DNA of 22,147 bases from a virus. Both the position numbers and the translations under genes were made by a program. Position 1 is the first letter of the stretch; every line of letters begins with the position of its first letter. The notes beneath the pieces are model-generated. The model ran no database searches. It was not told the origin of the DNA and saw only the letters and a program-made list of their open reading frames with translations. Shown one piece after another: positions 4,803 through 21,818 of this stretch. Where the stretch lies: IMG/VR virus record IMGVR_UViG_3300050120_000144, positions 1 to 22,147 of that record, one strand, 5' to 3'.

Positions 4803-4817
4803 GTAACAAATTGTTAC
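4803..4817. promoter_or_regulatory. 15-bp palindrome copy 1 (GTAACAAATTGTTAC)
   Basis: Perfect 7-bp inverted repeat around a single central A, lying nine bases beyond both the rightward i-spanin stop and the leftward small-gene stop, so between converging transcription units. It is one of five copies in the window, all intergenic or touching a stop codon. There is no room for an RNA loop, so a dimeric protein-binding site is more likely than a terminator. Confidence 0.7.
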
Positions 4818-9281: not shown

Positions 9282-10517
9282 TCATTGTTTTGCGAGGAGT
9301 TTTTTCGTATCTTCCTCAACGGTCAACAGAAATTTTGCCTTGTATTCGGGGTTGATTTCAATTCCCAATACTTGAAGGCCTTGCTCGTAGCATGCCCGAA
9401 GGGTGACACCACTACCACAGAAGGGGACAAATACGAATTGCATATCTTCAAGGAAGATAGAGAGGAGGGTTTTCATCAAGTGGAGAGGACGCTGCTGTGG
9501 ATGATATGAAGGTTTATCATCACTGTAAAGGACGGTGTTCATACTGCCTTGTCTTGCCAACTTCACAGATCCCTTGCTACATACGAATAGGGTATCGTGA
9601 TTGTGTCCAAGCATGGTGGGGTCTTTCATTACGGTACCGCCATTCTTGTACCACACAAATGGTGTTGGATCAACTTTCCATCCTGCCGTTATGAGGTCAG
9701 AGTATGTTTCAATGTAACGGTCGTGGGGGAACCAATATAAAAGCCAGCAATCTTTTCCGGCAATTCTATGAAGTTCCTTTGTCAATTTTTCATTTGCATC
9801 CTTGAAGGGAGGGTCACATTCGATTAGGTTAATGTGGCCATTTGCCTTCATATGTTCCATTTGTTTGAAGGCATCACCAATTACATAATTGTCGGAGGCG
9901 CAACGGAGGGTAGCACTCAGTCCCCTCTCTTTCTGTGTACTAGCAGGATTATTTTCATGTTGCGCCATTTTACCTGCCTGGCGCCTTGCCAACTCCTGTA
10001 CGATGCTATCCTCCTCGGCCTTCTTAATGACGGTGCTGGCCTCGTCTGCGGTCTTGCATTGCTCCAAGGAGGGCAATACTTCCATCCCGGCGGCCAATCG
10101 TAGAGCACGGCTGACATTCATCGGGTTCTTATCAATCAACTCGGCTGTTTTCCTGCCTGTCCAATTGATATTTTTTTCACTATAGAGGGCATGGATTCGG
10201 GCAATCAGTTTGGCCTGTTCTTGCCAGGTGAACTCCTTGCGGTGGATGTTCTCTATCAGTTCAATCTCACGGGCATCTATCTCTCCTTCTATAACGCGAA
10301 GGAGCGCAGGCATCTCAGTAAGGCCCAAAGCCACGCAAGCTGTATAACGACGGCCACCGGCCAATAGATGTAGGTCAGAAGAAAGTGTAATTGGTTGGAG
10401 GATACCTTTCTCACGAATACTCTCCTGGAGTTCATCAATGTTGCCGAGGTCAACACGGTAGCGTTCATCGACAATAATGTCGGCTACCTTTACCATTTTC
10501 AATTTGTCTTTTATCAT
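9282..10517 (-). CDS. ParB-like domain fused to DNA methyltransferase, 411 aa
   Basis: Residues 8-95 form a ParB/Srx-type domain with the GGRR motif (54-57, 'LLAGGRRYTACVALGL'). Residues about 100-150 contain a ParB-like helix-turn-helix ('RKTAELIDKNPMNVSRALRL'). Residues about 205-411 are an S-adenosylmethionine-dependent methyltransferase: motif IV DPPF (235-238), 'RPLHLMKTLL' (343-352) and motif I FCGSG (366-370). The IV-before-I order fits the beta class, N6-adenine or N4-cytosine. It is expected to methylate phage DNA; the HTH could direct or regulate binding. ATG 10517 overlaps the Mom-like gene stop (ATGA) with GGAGGG upstream. Neighbouring Mom-like protein suggests a modification module. 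Confidence 0.85.
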   Translation of the reverse strand: MIKDKLKMVKVADIIVDERYRVDLGNIDELQESIREKGILQPITLSSDLHLLAGGRRYTACVALGLTEMPALLRVIEGEIDAREIELIENIHRKEFTWQEQAKLIARIHALYSEKNINWTGRKTAELIDKNPMNVSRALRLAAGMEVLPSLEQCKTADEASTVIKKAEEDSIVQELARRQAGKMAQHENNPASTQKERGLSATLRCASDNYVIGDAFKQMEHMKANGHINLIECDPPFKDANEKLTKELHRIAGKDCWLLYWFPHDRYIETYSDLITAGWKVDPTPFVWYKNGGTVMKDPTMLGHNHDTLFVCSKGSVKLARQGSMNTVLYSDDKPSYHPQQRPLHLMKTLLSIFLEDMQFVFVPFCGSGVTLRACYEQGLQVLGIEINPEYKAKFLLTVEEDTKKLLAKQ

Positions 10518-11326
10518 TTCAATCCCTCCAGCAGCATAGCAAGTTGTTCGGGTGTCAAATCTGCCAACAGTTTCTCGGCAGCAGTGACGGCTTTCTTTTG
10601 TACCTTTTTCTTCTCCTTCACAACCCTTGCTTTTGCTGCCGGCCGCACAACCTCCCTCCTGTTTCTCAATTCATCAAGGCGTTTCAATAACTCCTCATCC
10701 GATTGATTCTCGATAGGTGTTACTAGGTCAATTAATTGTGACACTTTCTTATCTCCATCACTCTTTGTTAGGTGGAAGATGAATTTGTGTTTGTAAAAGG
10801 ATTTCATTTTCACATAGCCCATCGCGTACATAATGGTACTATTCTTGTGTGCGTTGCTTACTTGCCTTTCTGTTTTCGGGTCGATCCACCTTGCATGAGG
10901 GCCAACTCGGCCCATGTAGAGCCAGTTGGTTGCTTTGTAAATTCCCCCACTGTGACCTTGTGCTTCGTCGGCAAATGTTACGAGCGATACAAAGCGCCTA
11001 TCCCTCCGTATGATTTTAATACTCTTTCCAAGCAGAAAGGATGCACTATTTCGGGGCGCTTCTGGGCGGATAACCAATCTAGATAGATTGAGGACCCGCC
11101 GCCAATCGCTTGCATTGACAGTGAGGGCGGTGTCTTTCGTAGGGGGTGTCCACCAAGCAATACCCATGAGGAAATTGTCTTGTTTACGGAACATCCCGTG
11201 CGTGTATATTGCGCTGGTACTCCCACCTTTCGCATAGTGAAATTCCTTTACTAAGGCTTGTGCATCTGCCAAGGGACAATCGGCAACGTACCAGTCTTGC
11301 GTGTTTAGGTTAGTGGAGGCATCCAT
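10514..11326 (-). CDS. Mom-like DNA modification protein (GNAT-type fold), 270 aa
   Basis: Core 'LNLSRLVIRPEAPRNSASF' and 'VSLVTFADEAQGHSGGIYKA' followed by 'TNWLYMGR' matches the phage Mom family, GNAT-like enzymes that hypermodify adenine in phage Mu to resist restriction. The assignment rests on remembered family patterns, so the exact product here is uncertain. After the core comes a basic linker (about 225-250, rich in Arg, Lys, Ala) and a short helical tail 'LLADLTPEQLAMLLEGLK' that also ends other proteins in this window. Start taken at ATG 11326 with AAGGTC upstream; the longer ORF would run through a terminator. It follows that terminator, so it may need its own promoter or readthrough. 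Confidence 0.75.
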   Translation of the reverse strand: MDASTNLNTQDWYVADCPLADAQALVKEFHYAKGGSTSAIYTHGMFRKQDNFLMGIAWWTPPTKDTALTVNASDWRRVLNLSRLVIRPEAPRNSASFLLGKSIKIIRRDRRFVSLVTFADEAQGHSGGIYKATNWLYMGRVGPHARWIDPKTERQVSNAHKNSTIMYAMGYVKMKSFYKHKFIFHLTKSDGDKKVSQLIDLVTPIENQSDEELLKRLDELRNRREVVRPAAKARVVKEKKKVQKKAVTAAEKLLADLTPEQLAMLLEGLK

Positions 11327-11347
11327 TCTGTTGACCTTGTAGGAATG

Positions 11348-11381
11348 CAAAAAGCCCCTTCCCCTTTTACAGGGAAGAGGC
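11348..11381 (-). terminator. Rho-independent terminator, leftward
   Basis: On the - strand GCCTCTTCCC (complement of 11372-11381) pairs over about ten base pairs with the G-rich arm complementary to 11354-11364, with a short A-rich loop, and is followed by TTTTT (11349-11353 read as A on the + strand). It lies between the DUF669-like gene stop (11402) and the Mom-like start (11326), so it should separate recombination genes from modification and replication genes. Confidence 0.8.
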
Positions 11382-11401
11382 AGACATTGCAACTTTACTT
11401 A

Positions 11402-14708: not shown

Positions 14709-14782
14709 TGGAGCGTCCTATTGGATTTGAACCAATACCTATACGTTGGACCGTATCGCTCTACCCGTTGAGCTAAGGACGC
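14709..14782 (-). tRNA. tRNA with CCA-encoded end; anticodon loop 6 or 8 nt, probable Trp(CCA)-like
   Basis: On the - strand: 7-bp acceptor stem GCGTCCT/AGGACGC, D stem GCTC/GAGC, T arm ATTGG-TTCAAAT-CCAAT, discriminator T and encoded CCA; 74 nt in all. The anticodon arm is irregular: ATACG/CGTAT pairs perfectly but leaves a 6-nt loop GTCCAA; opening the last pair gives 8 nt, GGTCCAAC. If T is U33 the anticodon is CCA (Trp); if the frame shifts by one it could be read as TCC (Gly), which would fit the U discriminator but lacks U33. Isotype is therefore uncertain. Confidence 0.75.
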
Positions 14783-15325: not shown

Positions 15326-15349
15326 CCTAACGCAGGGGGATACGTTAGG
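15326..15349 (-). other. Hairpin overlapping a stop codon
   Basis: CCTAACG (15326-15332) pairs perfectly with CGTTAGG (15343-15349) around a 10-nt loop and includes the TAA stop of the 113-aa gene. It precedes the intrinsic terminator by about 15 bases and may stabilise the mRNA 3' end. Confidence 0.5.
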
Positions 15350-15686
15350 CAGCCTTCTTCGCAGCCTTGACCTTCTCCAACAGGGCGGCCAGGTCCTCTG
15401 CGGACATCTGACCCAGCGCGGCCGATGCACGCTCCAACGGGGTCTTGACGGTGCGAGCACGACGGACACCCGGCTGCCATGCATCAACGAAACCCTGGAT
15501 TTCGGCGAGCGGTTTCGCCTTATTCACAAGGGCGAGGTTGCGGATGGCACGGCAGATTTCTGCCACTGCCAACTCATGCACCGTTTCCTCACCATACTGC
15601 GCCACCAGGCCCTTCAGATCTTCAGCCACATCAAACTGGACGATGATCGGTTCCGCAAGTTCCTTACTCTTTGCCTTGATATCCAT
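15345..15686 (-). CDS. Hypothetical helical protein with C-terminal 'LSxEQL' type tail, 113 aa
   Basis: ATG 15686 follows GAGGA. The protein is predicted helical: 'EETVHELAVAEICRAIRNLA', a Trp/Arg loop, then 'LERASAALGQMSAEDLAALL' and a Lys/Ala-rich end 'EKVKAAKKAA'. It aligns by eye over its second half with the 100-aa protein at 21261-21563 (KPxxE...G.R...TP...AxL..xSxEQLxAL), so the two are likely distant paralogs. The gene is G+C-richer than its flanks. It has the best sigma70-type promoter in the window about 135 bases upstream and a strong terminator, suggesting a separately expressed, abundant early product. Function unknown. Confidence 0.7.
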   Translation of the reverse strand: MDIKAKSKELAEPIIVQFDVAEDLKGLVAQYGEETVHELAVAEICRAIRNLALVNKAKPLAEIQGFVDAWQPGVRRARTVKTPLERASAALGQMSAEDLAALLEKVKAAKKAA

Positions 15687-15822
15687 TACATTTTCCTCTG
15701 CTGTTTTGTCCCCTTTGTACGGGGGCGGGTTATGCCTACCTGTGGAATTACAGGAGAGGCGGATTCTTTGTCTTTGTTTCTTGTTGGGGAATCTTTCCAA
15801 TCAATCGTTTAATCGTGTGTCT

Positions 15823-20133: not shown

Positions 20134-20613
20134 TCAGCCATCCGGATACAGGATAGAGAAGCATGCTTGCCATTCCTGTTCCTCCTCAAGGGAGAGGAGA
20201 ATGTCCGCTTCTTTGCGGTCATTCAACTTTGTGAACTTATCCTTGAGTTCTCGCAATGCCTGTTCCTCCATAACCTGCGGCGGCATGCTTGTATTAACAC
20301 GAGGGAGGGAGATTGCAGCGGAGCCGTGCTGTGCTGCTAGATACAGGCTATTGGAAGTAAGGCGTTTCACCTTATTATTCTTCCCATCCCTATACGGGCC
20401 AACCTTATCAAGGAAGGCGAATCCGTCTGGCTCCTCGATGATGCCCGCTTGCCTTGCCATCCCAATCAAACTGGACAGTGCAAGGGACGTACAACTGGCG
20501 AAGGACATATTATCCCTCCTCACCTGCGCTACGTCCAATATATCCAGGATGGATATACAATCCTTCGGAGATATGCGAACGGTCGTGACCATTCCCGCCT
20601 TCATTGTTGCCAT
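20134..20613 (-). CDS. Hypothetical protein, 159 aa
   Basis: Start taken at ATG 20613 with AAGG six bases upstream. A longer reading from ATG 20688 is unlikely, because that ATG overlaps the promoter -10 TATAAT and lacks an SD. 'MVTTVRISPKDCISILDILD' opens; helical middle ('TSLALSSLIGMARQAGIIEE', a winged-helix-like feel), and a C-terminal charged coil 'QALRELKDKFTKLNDRKEAD'. Not recognised. Its promoter is built into the end of the 9-bp repeat array, so the protein may act on or be regulated by the array. Confidence 0.55.
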   Translation of the reverse strand: MATMKAGMVTTVRISPKDCISILDILDVAQVRRDNMSFASCTSLALSSLIGMARQAGIIEEPDGFAFLDKVGPYRDGKNNKVKRLTSNSLYLAAQHGSAAISLPRVNTSMPPQVMEEQALRELKDKFTKLNDRKEADILLSLEEEQEWQACFSILYPDG

Positions 20614-20686: not shown

Positions 20687-20714
20687 ATTATAGCAGTGTG
20701 ACAGAGTGTTGCAA
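20687..20714 (-). promoter_or_regulatory. Promoter abutting the repeat array, leftward
   Basis: On the - strand TTGCAA (20709-20714, 4 of 6 to TTGACA), 16-base spacer and perfect TATAAT (20687-20692). The -35 box lies in the outermost 9-bp repeat unit. Transcription would start near 20680 and lead into the gene at 20613. Confidence 0.55.
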
Positions 20715-20876
20715 GTGTTGCACGTGTTAGTGATGTTGCACGTGTTGCGAGTGTTAATGATGTTAGTAAGCTGCATGCTTGTTTTTTAAATATTTTTTTA
20801 AGAGCATATGTCACTTACTAACACTCTAAACACTTCCAACATATACAACATATACAACACTACTAACATATACAAC
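20708..20876. repeat. Two opposed arrays of 9-bp repeats around an AT-rich core
   Basis: Left arm 20708-20770: seven contiguous 9-bp units of the form GTTRNNNRT, for example GTTGCAAGT, GTTGCACGT, GTTAGTGAT. Right arm 20814-20876: seven contiguous units of the reverse form AYNNNYAAC, for example ATATACAAC, ACTACTAAC. The innermost units are exact reverse complements (GTTAGTAAG and CTTACTAAC). The 43-bp core contains T6 and T7 runs with AAATA. The arms are equal (63 bp each). This looks like an iteron-type origin or a partition site; origin function is inferred. Confidence 0.75.
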
Positions 20877-20903
20877 ACTTCACATATTATCTTAATAAAT
20901 CCC

Positions 20904-20918
20904 ATAACAATTTGTTAC
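20904..20918. promoter_or_regulatory. 15-bp palindrome copy 5 (ATAACAATTTGTTAC)
   Basis: As copies 2 and 4 but with A for the first G. It lies 26 bases beyond the stop at 20945 and 28 bases to the right of the repeat array. Confidence 0.65.
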
Positions 20919-20944
20919 AGGATTTTCTTCAATAAAATGTACAA

Positions 20945-21169
20945 TTATTCCGGCTTTTCGATATTAAACAGAATGAATATTTCATCTGGTTGTTCACAAT
21001 AATACACATTTTCCTGTGCATTACTAATTGTGTAATTCAATTCTTCATCGAACAATCGCACGCATTTATTTCCATGCTCTTCACGCAACGATTGCAAACG
21101 AGCAATCAACACATCAAGTGTGATAGTTGCGCTTGCGAAGTAATCATGTTCTTTATTTGAGACAGTCAT
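20945..21169 (-). CDS. Small acidic hypothetical protein, 74 aa
   Basis: ATG 21169 with GGAG in an ACGATTGGAG leader; the longer ORF runs into a hairpin region. 'NKEHDYFASATITLDVLIAR', 'LQSLREEHGNKCVRLFDEEL' and an acidic/aromatic end ('EQPDEIFILFNIEKPE'). Small acidic protein of unknown family; such early proteins often bind host proteins, which is speculation here. Confidence 0.6.
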   Translation of the reverse strand: MTVSNKEHDYFASATITLDVLIARLQSLREEHGNKCVRLFDEELNYTISNAQENVYYCEQPDEIFILFNIEKPE

Positions 21170-21260: not shown

Positions 21261-21563
21261 TTACATTAATCCACGTGCTTTCATCAGCGCGATCAACTGC
21301 TCTTCGCTCAGAGATGCAAGTATCTGTTCTGGAGTTTGTGCAGCTTTACGCAATCCCTGTTTATAATCACGCGCGTACAGAGTGACAGTCTCGCTAACTG
21401 GTTTTCCATCTTCGCGTGCTTGCTGTTGAAACTTGTTGACGACTTTTTGCGCAGCGAGTGCTTGCACGTCTTCAACTGTGCAGTCATCCCAGATAATCGT
21501 CACGCTTGACTTGTACGTAACATCTGCAATCTTACAACGTGACTTCGTCTGTGTATTTTCCAT
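21261..21563 (-). CDS. Hypothetical protein with 'LSEEQLIALM' tail, 100 aa
   Basis: ATG 21563 with GGAG in an ACGATTGGAG leader. Beta strand 'KSSVTIIWDDCTVEDVQALA', helix 'AQKVVNKFQQQAREDGKPVS', then 'TVTLYARDYKQGLRKA' and the C-terminal 'TPEQILASLSEEQLIALMKA'. This order fits a small phage protein family I have seen in podophages, without known function. Distant paralog of the 113-aa protein at 15345-15686. It is the first gene of the leftward block; its start faces the control region. Confidence 0.7.
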   Translation of the reverse strand: MENTQTKSRCKIADVTYKSSVTIIWDDCTVEDVQALAAQKVVNKFQQQAREDGKPVSETVTLYARDYKQGLRKAAQTPEQILASLSEEQLIALMKARGLM

Positions 21564-21745: not shown

Positions 21746-21759
21746 CAATATGCAATGAT

Positions 21760-21818
21760 GAATGATAATCATTCGCACAATGCGATTGCATATCATAACG
21801 AGAATGATAACTATTCTC
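21760..21818. promoter_or_regulatory. Two Fur-box-like palindromes in divergent control region
   Basis: GAATGATAATCATTC (21760-21774) contains the 13-bp centre of the Fur consensus exactly; GAGAATGATAACTATTCTC (21800-21818) matches 15 of 19 consensus positions. Centres are about 42 bp apart. The whole stretch 21564-22020 between the leftward block and the + strand ORF at 22021 is AT-rich with these sites and no convincing gene apart from short ORFs. Confidence 0.45.

Follow-up and report, generated by a model that had tools for sequence, protein, structure and literature searches.

An array of facing 9-bp units in an uncultured phage: probably the control site of the adjacent protein P0001 and perhaps also a replication start

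Introduction

What use could a phage have for fourteen copies of a short DNA unit, set out in two arms that face each other across an A/T-rich core? The window, which here means the whole stretch analyzed, comes from an uncultured phage and is a linear piece of 22,147 bases. Its late genes, with endolysin and spanin families, are on the left and on the plus strand. A leftward operon on the minus strand, from about 21.6 kb to 5 kb, encodes a primase, a family-A polymerase, a ParB_N-methyltransferase fusion, a Mom-like protein, a Sak4-like protein, and a PD-(D/E)XK nuclease. The array occupies an intergenic gap of this operon, with the gene at 20945-21169 on one side and the gene for P0001, a 159-aa protein (20134-20613, minus strand), on the other. 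An earlier note on this DNA had proposed a replication origin or a centromere. The array is probably the control site of P0001, and perhaps also a replication start.

Architecture of the array

Seven contiguous 9-bp units of the form GTTRNNNRT make up the promoter-proximal arm (20708-20770, plus strand), and seven contiguous units in the reversed orientation make up the promoter-distal arm (20814-20876, minus strand), on either side of an A/T-rich core of 43 bp (20771-20813). This is the layout that the earlier note had described. G1, T2, and T3 are invariant across the units, 11 of the 14 match GTTRNNNRT exactly, and the one-base departures are the two innermost units and one GTTTAGAGT. The innermost units, GTTAGTAAG at 20762-20770 on the plus strand and again GTTAGTAAG on the minus strand at 20814-20822, form a perfect inverted repeat.

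The array is far beyond chance. A pattern spanning two units, RTGTTRNNNRTGTTR, has 10 matches in the window compared to 0.02 expected, all of them within the array, and self-identity at a lag of 9 is 33/54 in each arm, where Markov resampling of the full window, repeated 100 times, reached at most 29. The view that coding does not explain the array also holds, as it is not coding. The perfect symmetry claimed for the arms has to be narrowed. The in-register match between them (43/63) is no better than in unit-shuffled versions (p=0.12), so the symmetry consists of the orientation of the units and the perfect innermost 9-bp inverted repeat. A palindrome at the level of bases, which had appeared strong by whole-sequence shuffles, was explained by the units once the arms were shuffled separately. 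About 50 other loci in viral contigs that carry the pattern were also rejected, being tandem repeats in a single direction without a dyad. No DNA match to the array region was found in annotated phage records, and an Rfam scan of the window found a tRNA alone. For this tRNA gene (14709-14782, minus strand; Rfam 58 bits), ARAGORN assigned no anticodon and gave a two-base reading.

Conservation and unit turnover in relatives

Viral contigs searched by protein and by pattern supplied five close relatives (L009/L042, L010/L065, L011/L064, L012/L053, and L022), four of which span the whole array; L022 stops inside it. The distal/proximal unit counts of the four complete arrays are 7/5, 6/8, 7/5, and 6/7, compared to 7/7 in the window. 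This means that the exact equality of the arms, part of the earlier description, is true of the 63-bp arms in the window but incidental, since the counts differ in the relatives. The core length of 43 bp is kept in all five (L022 included), and the register, the unit orientation, and both ends of the array persist as the unit number changes by 9-bp steps. Because the ends, at the promoter and at a flanking palindrome, are constant, units are gained and lost inside the arms.

Between close relatives, the array and core are 96-97% identical, compared to 90% for the P0001 gene, 88% for its leader, and 60% for the upstream flank, so that the best conserved DNA among the parts compared is the non-coding array. 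The array is genuine and selectively maintained, and it most likely consists of protein-binding sites. The suggestion of an iteron-like protein-binding array is well supported by the selective conservation, the in-register turnover of units, and the co-inheritance with the adjacent gene.

Two more distant relatives, each of about 44.5 kb, carry a different type of array. One, G7 (IMGVR 3300010371_000016), is counted as complete because of a 123-base end overlap; the other, G6 (JAGWIG010000017.1, 44,519 bases), is in a Pseudomonadota MAG. The dyad has the same location as in the window, and the order is a TG-rich distal arm, the core, a CA-rich proximal arm, and the promoter-like sequence. The core is 44-45 bp long (GGGCATGGG...AAAAAATAAAAAAAAYATATATACC) and the innermost pair is TGTGTCAAC/GTTGACACA. 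The units are of the TGTG type and irregularly spaced, mostly at 7-13 bp, which restricts the strict 9-bp period to the clade of the window. The segregation of unit orientation between the arms (p 0.27 and 0.05) is only suggestive. The earlier note had asked for relatives that keep period and symmetry despite diverged units; here the dyad and the core length persist, but the strict 9-bp period does not extend to G6 and G7. TGTG-type phages also have a small gene between the array and P0001 (about 69 aa, MKPT-EQI...; L067 4229-4438, L084 5795-6004), which is absent from the window.

The adjacent protein

Two gene products had been named as candidate binders. In the product of 9282-10517, a ParB_N domain is joined to a DNA methyltransferase. 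This fusion is rejected as the binder because it is 85-89% identical between phages with different array units and so does not track them. The product of 20134-20613, P0001, is the best-supported partner and the likeliest binder of the array. The core replication proteins keep 92-97% identity across the two array types, whereas P0001 keeps 59-61%, which is among the lowest values for the conserved early proteins; the early proteins 14443, 16346, and 16141 diverge as much or more. This co-divergence of array and P0001 is seen over two array types and seven genomes only.

Within the window's clade, P0001 is 96-98% identical and its neighbours are variable. For example, contig 3300031669_000284 has the array type of the window and a P0001 that is 97% identical, yet its flanking proteins, of 100 and 83 aa, share 72% and 55% identity with those of the window. 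In G6, the flanking proteins are 80% and 80% identical to the window's, P0001 is 61% identical, and the array type is different. The array type therefore follows P0001 and not the mosaic neighbours. Together, P0001 and the array would form a specificity cassette.

The divergence within P0001 is uneven. Between array types, identity over residues 4-16 is 38-54%, compared to 85% within the TGTG type; over the C-terminal 47 residues, a conserved tail, it is 74-87%. Segment 4-16 is where a ribbon-helix-helix protein would contact DNA. An AlphaFold2 model of the N-terminal 60 residues, of modest confidence (pLDDT 76), has an extended segment followed by helices at 13-25 and 35-52. The order of elements in this beta-alpha-alpha pattern resembles a ribbon-helix-helix, a fold that we infer from the pattern. 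The full-length model is poor (pLDDT 55), and a PDB search with it returned nothing meaningful. Pfam, PHROGs, and PDB searches gave no match in support of a ribbon-helix-helix fold, a P0001 profile compared with eight known members of that family was not significant, and no match to P0001 was found among annotated phage records.

A model of autoregulation

A predicted sigma-70-like promoter, TTGCAA-16-TATAAT with an extended -10 TG (20687-20714, minus strand), reads into the P0001 gene, and a promoter-like sequence is at the same position in relatives. Consensus promoter matches in the region number 3, compared to 2.5 expected from shuffled sequence. The earlier note had placed a promoter within the left edge of the array. 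This is the case for the -35 hexamer TTGCAA (20709-20714, minus strand), which is inside the outermost proximal unit, but TATAAT (20687-20692) is outside the array. Contiguous short direct and inverted units thus overlap the predicted promoter of the gene for the putative binder, as in omega-like operators.

The array could be considered a cis-acting binding platform for P0001, which is encoded directly downstream. Dimers of P0001 would occupy the 9-bp units of each arm contiguously and cooperatively. The geometry between the arms would be fixed by the innermost inverted pair together with the A/T-rich core of 43-45 bp, and the arms would be bridged across the core. Occupancy of the proximal arm would cover the -35 box of the promoter for P0001 and the genes that follow, and P0001 expression would in this way be autoregulated. 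We infer the identity of the binder, its ribbon-helix-helix domain, and the autoregulatory outcome. The whole reading, in which the P0001-bound array autoregulates its own promoter and the pair acts as a specificity cassette, is the simplest one, but tentative, and we would put its chances close to even. One of its difficulties is the conserved A/T core of 43-45 bp, which a repressor array as such does not need.

Alternative explanations

The array could also be a replication origin, in which iteron-like units flank an A/T-rich unwinding element and are bound by an initiator. Tandem repeats in a fixed register adjoin an A/T-rich region, as expected of an iteron origin. The core length (43-45 bp) and the perfect innermost inverted repeat, conserved even with diverged units, make an origin possible. 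The least stable DNA of the window, at both 50 and 100 bp, is the stretch at 20850-20949, which overlaps the distal arm, and the 43-bp core also ranks among its least stable parts. Iteron number likewise varies between related lambdoid phages, 4 compared to 6 (PMC7466680), and RepA_N iterons carry inverted repeats that converge on a poly-A tract (PMC7145576). The initiator would most likely be P0001, whose C terminus is more conserved than its N terminus; by analogy with lambda O, the variable N terminus would read the DNA and the conserved C terminus would recruit the phage's conserved replication proteins.

However, in the two relatives of about 44.5 kb the minimum of cumulative GC skew is 4-4.6 kb from the array, in a broad flat stretch of the late arm, and their genomes have DNA less stable than the core. 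The primase, polymerase, and recombination genes are also 6-15 kb away. Among the window proteins scanned, no replication initiator of a known family was recognised, and P0001 matches no family. The origin proposed in the earlier note is thus possible from the conserved core length and inverted repeat, but neither GC skew nor duplex stability singles out an origin at the array; we regard it as less likely than autoregulation, though a serious rival. Somewhat less probable still is a more specific proposal, that podovirus-like phages have in P0001 and the dyad array an initiator-origin pair not described before. Iterons in variable number would flank the A/T core on both sides, the DNA-reading N terminus of the initiator would co-evolve with the units, and its C terminus would contact conserved replication proteins.

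Could the element instead act as a hairpin or cruciform in single-stranded DNA or RNA, and not as double-stranded protein sites? Either strand can be folded into a long hairpin (RNA z -5.8 and -5.6; -3.1 to -3.5 in relatives), but the whole-sequence shuffles behind these values take no account of the differing composition of the arms, TG-rich in one and CA-rich in the other. When the unit columns are shuffled within each arm, the window hairpin no longer stands out (p=0.20), and with dinucleotide shuffles done arm by arm the relatives are borderline (p 0.03-0.08). With unequal arms of 5 and 7 units in existence as well, this explanation is improbable.

The pac site of phage P1 has hexanucleotide repeats on each side of the cut region. 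A packaging site of this type, read by a small terminase, is very unlikely here: in G7, about 1.2 kb separates the array from a candidate small terminase gene (helix-turn-helix-like, judged by eye), but the array is located at an early promoter and its type follows P0001.

Last, and hardly credible, is a role in partition, in which the array would be a centromere for a ParB- or ParR-like protein. Its short, contiguous repeats in both orientations beside a promoter do resemble parS of pSM19035 (PMC9499535), but the units are 9-bp and non-palindromic where canonical parS is a 16-bp palindrome, the only ParB_N protein found is the methyltransferase fusion and not a ParB with HTH, the gene content is that of a tailed phage of about 44.5 kb, and AAA_31 (ParA-type), tubulin/FtsZ, and tyrosine integrase had no match in the complete relative G007. 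For partition NTPases, this negative covers AAA_31 and tubulin/FtsZ; the search for ParM (StbA_N) had no working control. The ParB-type site of the earlier note is, with no ParA-type ATPase or tubulin/FtsZ in G007, unsupported.

Other elements of the genome

The palindrome that borders the array on its distal side (20904-20918) is a one-mismatch copy of GTAACAAWTTGTTAC, a dispersed 15-bp palindrome found in the window at 4803, 11927, 15953, 19484, and 20904 and in 8 copies each in G6 and G7. The window has 4 exact copies compared to 0 expected, and they are apparently intergenic. A TATAATAAA-like sequence is usually 4 bp ahead of the palindrome, and the A/T-rich side has the same genome direction in 18 of 21 copies (2 ties, 1 opposite), in early and late arms. 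A phage-wide operator or promoter element is possible. The flanking copy was rejected as an intrinsic terminator: the window and L067 show good pairing, but the outer stem is missing in L084, L009, and L010, and a terminator scan found none.

The divergent early/late intergenic region of the window, G6, and G7 has a pair of TACTGNWCGGTT sequences exactly 34 bp apart (window 21745/21711, minus strand; G6 5172/5138; G7 3392/3426), which are candidate paired operators or promoters. Two palindromes in the same region of the window, at 21758-21776 and 21800-21818, are candidate Fur-box-like sites; GAGAATGATAACTATTCTC has 4/19 mismatches and is present in L042 too, and ATGAATGATAATCATTCGC has 5. Similar tails, TPEQILASLSEEQLIALM, LGQMSAEDLAALLEKV, and LLADLTPEQLAMLLEGL, end the early proteins at 21261-21563, 15345-15800, and 10514-11392 (minus strand), and are perhaps a common short motif for binding a partner.

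Known systems and implications

One of the closest parallels is omega, a ribbon-helix-helix protein whose inverted and direct arrays of 7-bp sites overlap promoters (PMC9499535). The heptads of omega, the ParB of pSM19035, resemble the array in being contiguous, short, non-palindromic direct or inverted units that overlap promoters, in sets of 7-10 with a cognate small DNA-binding protein (PMC9499535), a role that P0001 would take here. However, the unit is 9 bp and not 7, the array is built as two uniform facing arms round a 43-bp core, no ParA was found here, and the fold of P0001 is only predicted. Another parallel is lambda O and ori-lambda, where an early phage gene also goes with variable-number repeats and an A/T-rich tract (PMC7466680). 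P0001 can be likened to lambda O in its variable N terminus and more conserved C terminus, and no sequence similarity between the two was found. In contrast to ori-lambda, the repeats are outside the gene, have 9-bp units, and flank the A/T core, and the origin role is putative. In RepA_N-type origins (PLE, pSK41, and pTZ2162), inverted repeats converge on a poly-A tract in a similar way (PMC7145576), but the arms here are multi-unit and no RepA_N protein was recognised in the set of window proteins that was scanned. Desulfofustis phage LS06-2018-MD01, which by its polymerase (34%) is the nearest annotated relative, has no similar array of tandem repeats in 30 kb of scanned sequence.

The locus thus ties a strikingly regular cis element to a small protein for which the libraries searched gave no recognised relative, and the phage group itself is without a close member in the annotated phage collection. 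If P0001 and the array are a self-recognition cassette, they would be a small, testable system in which a protein and its DNA units co-evolve. If the array is also an origin, it would place the replication start in a group of phages of about 44 kb for which none was found described.
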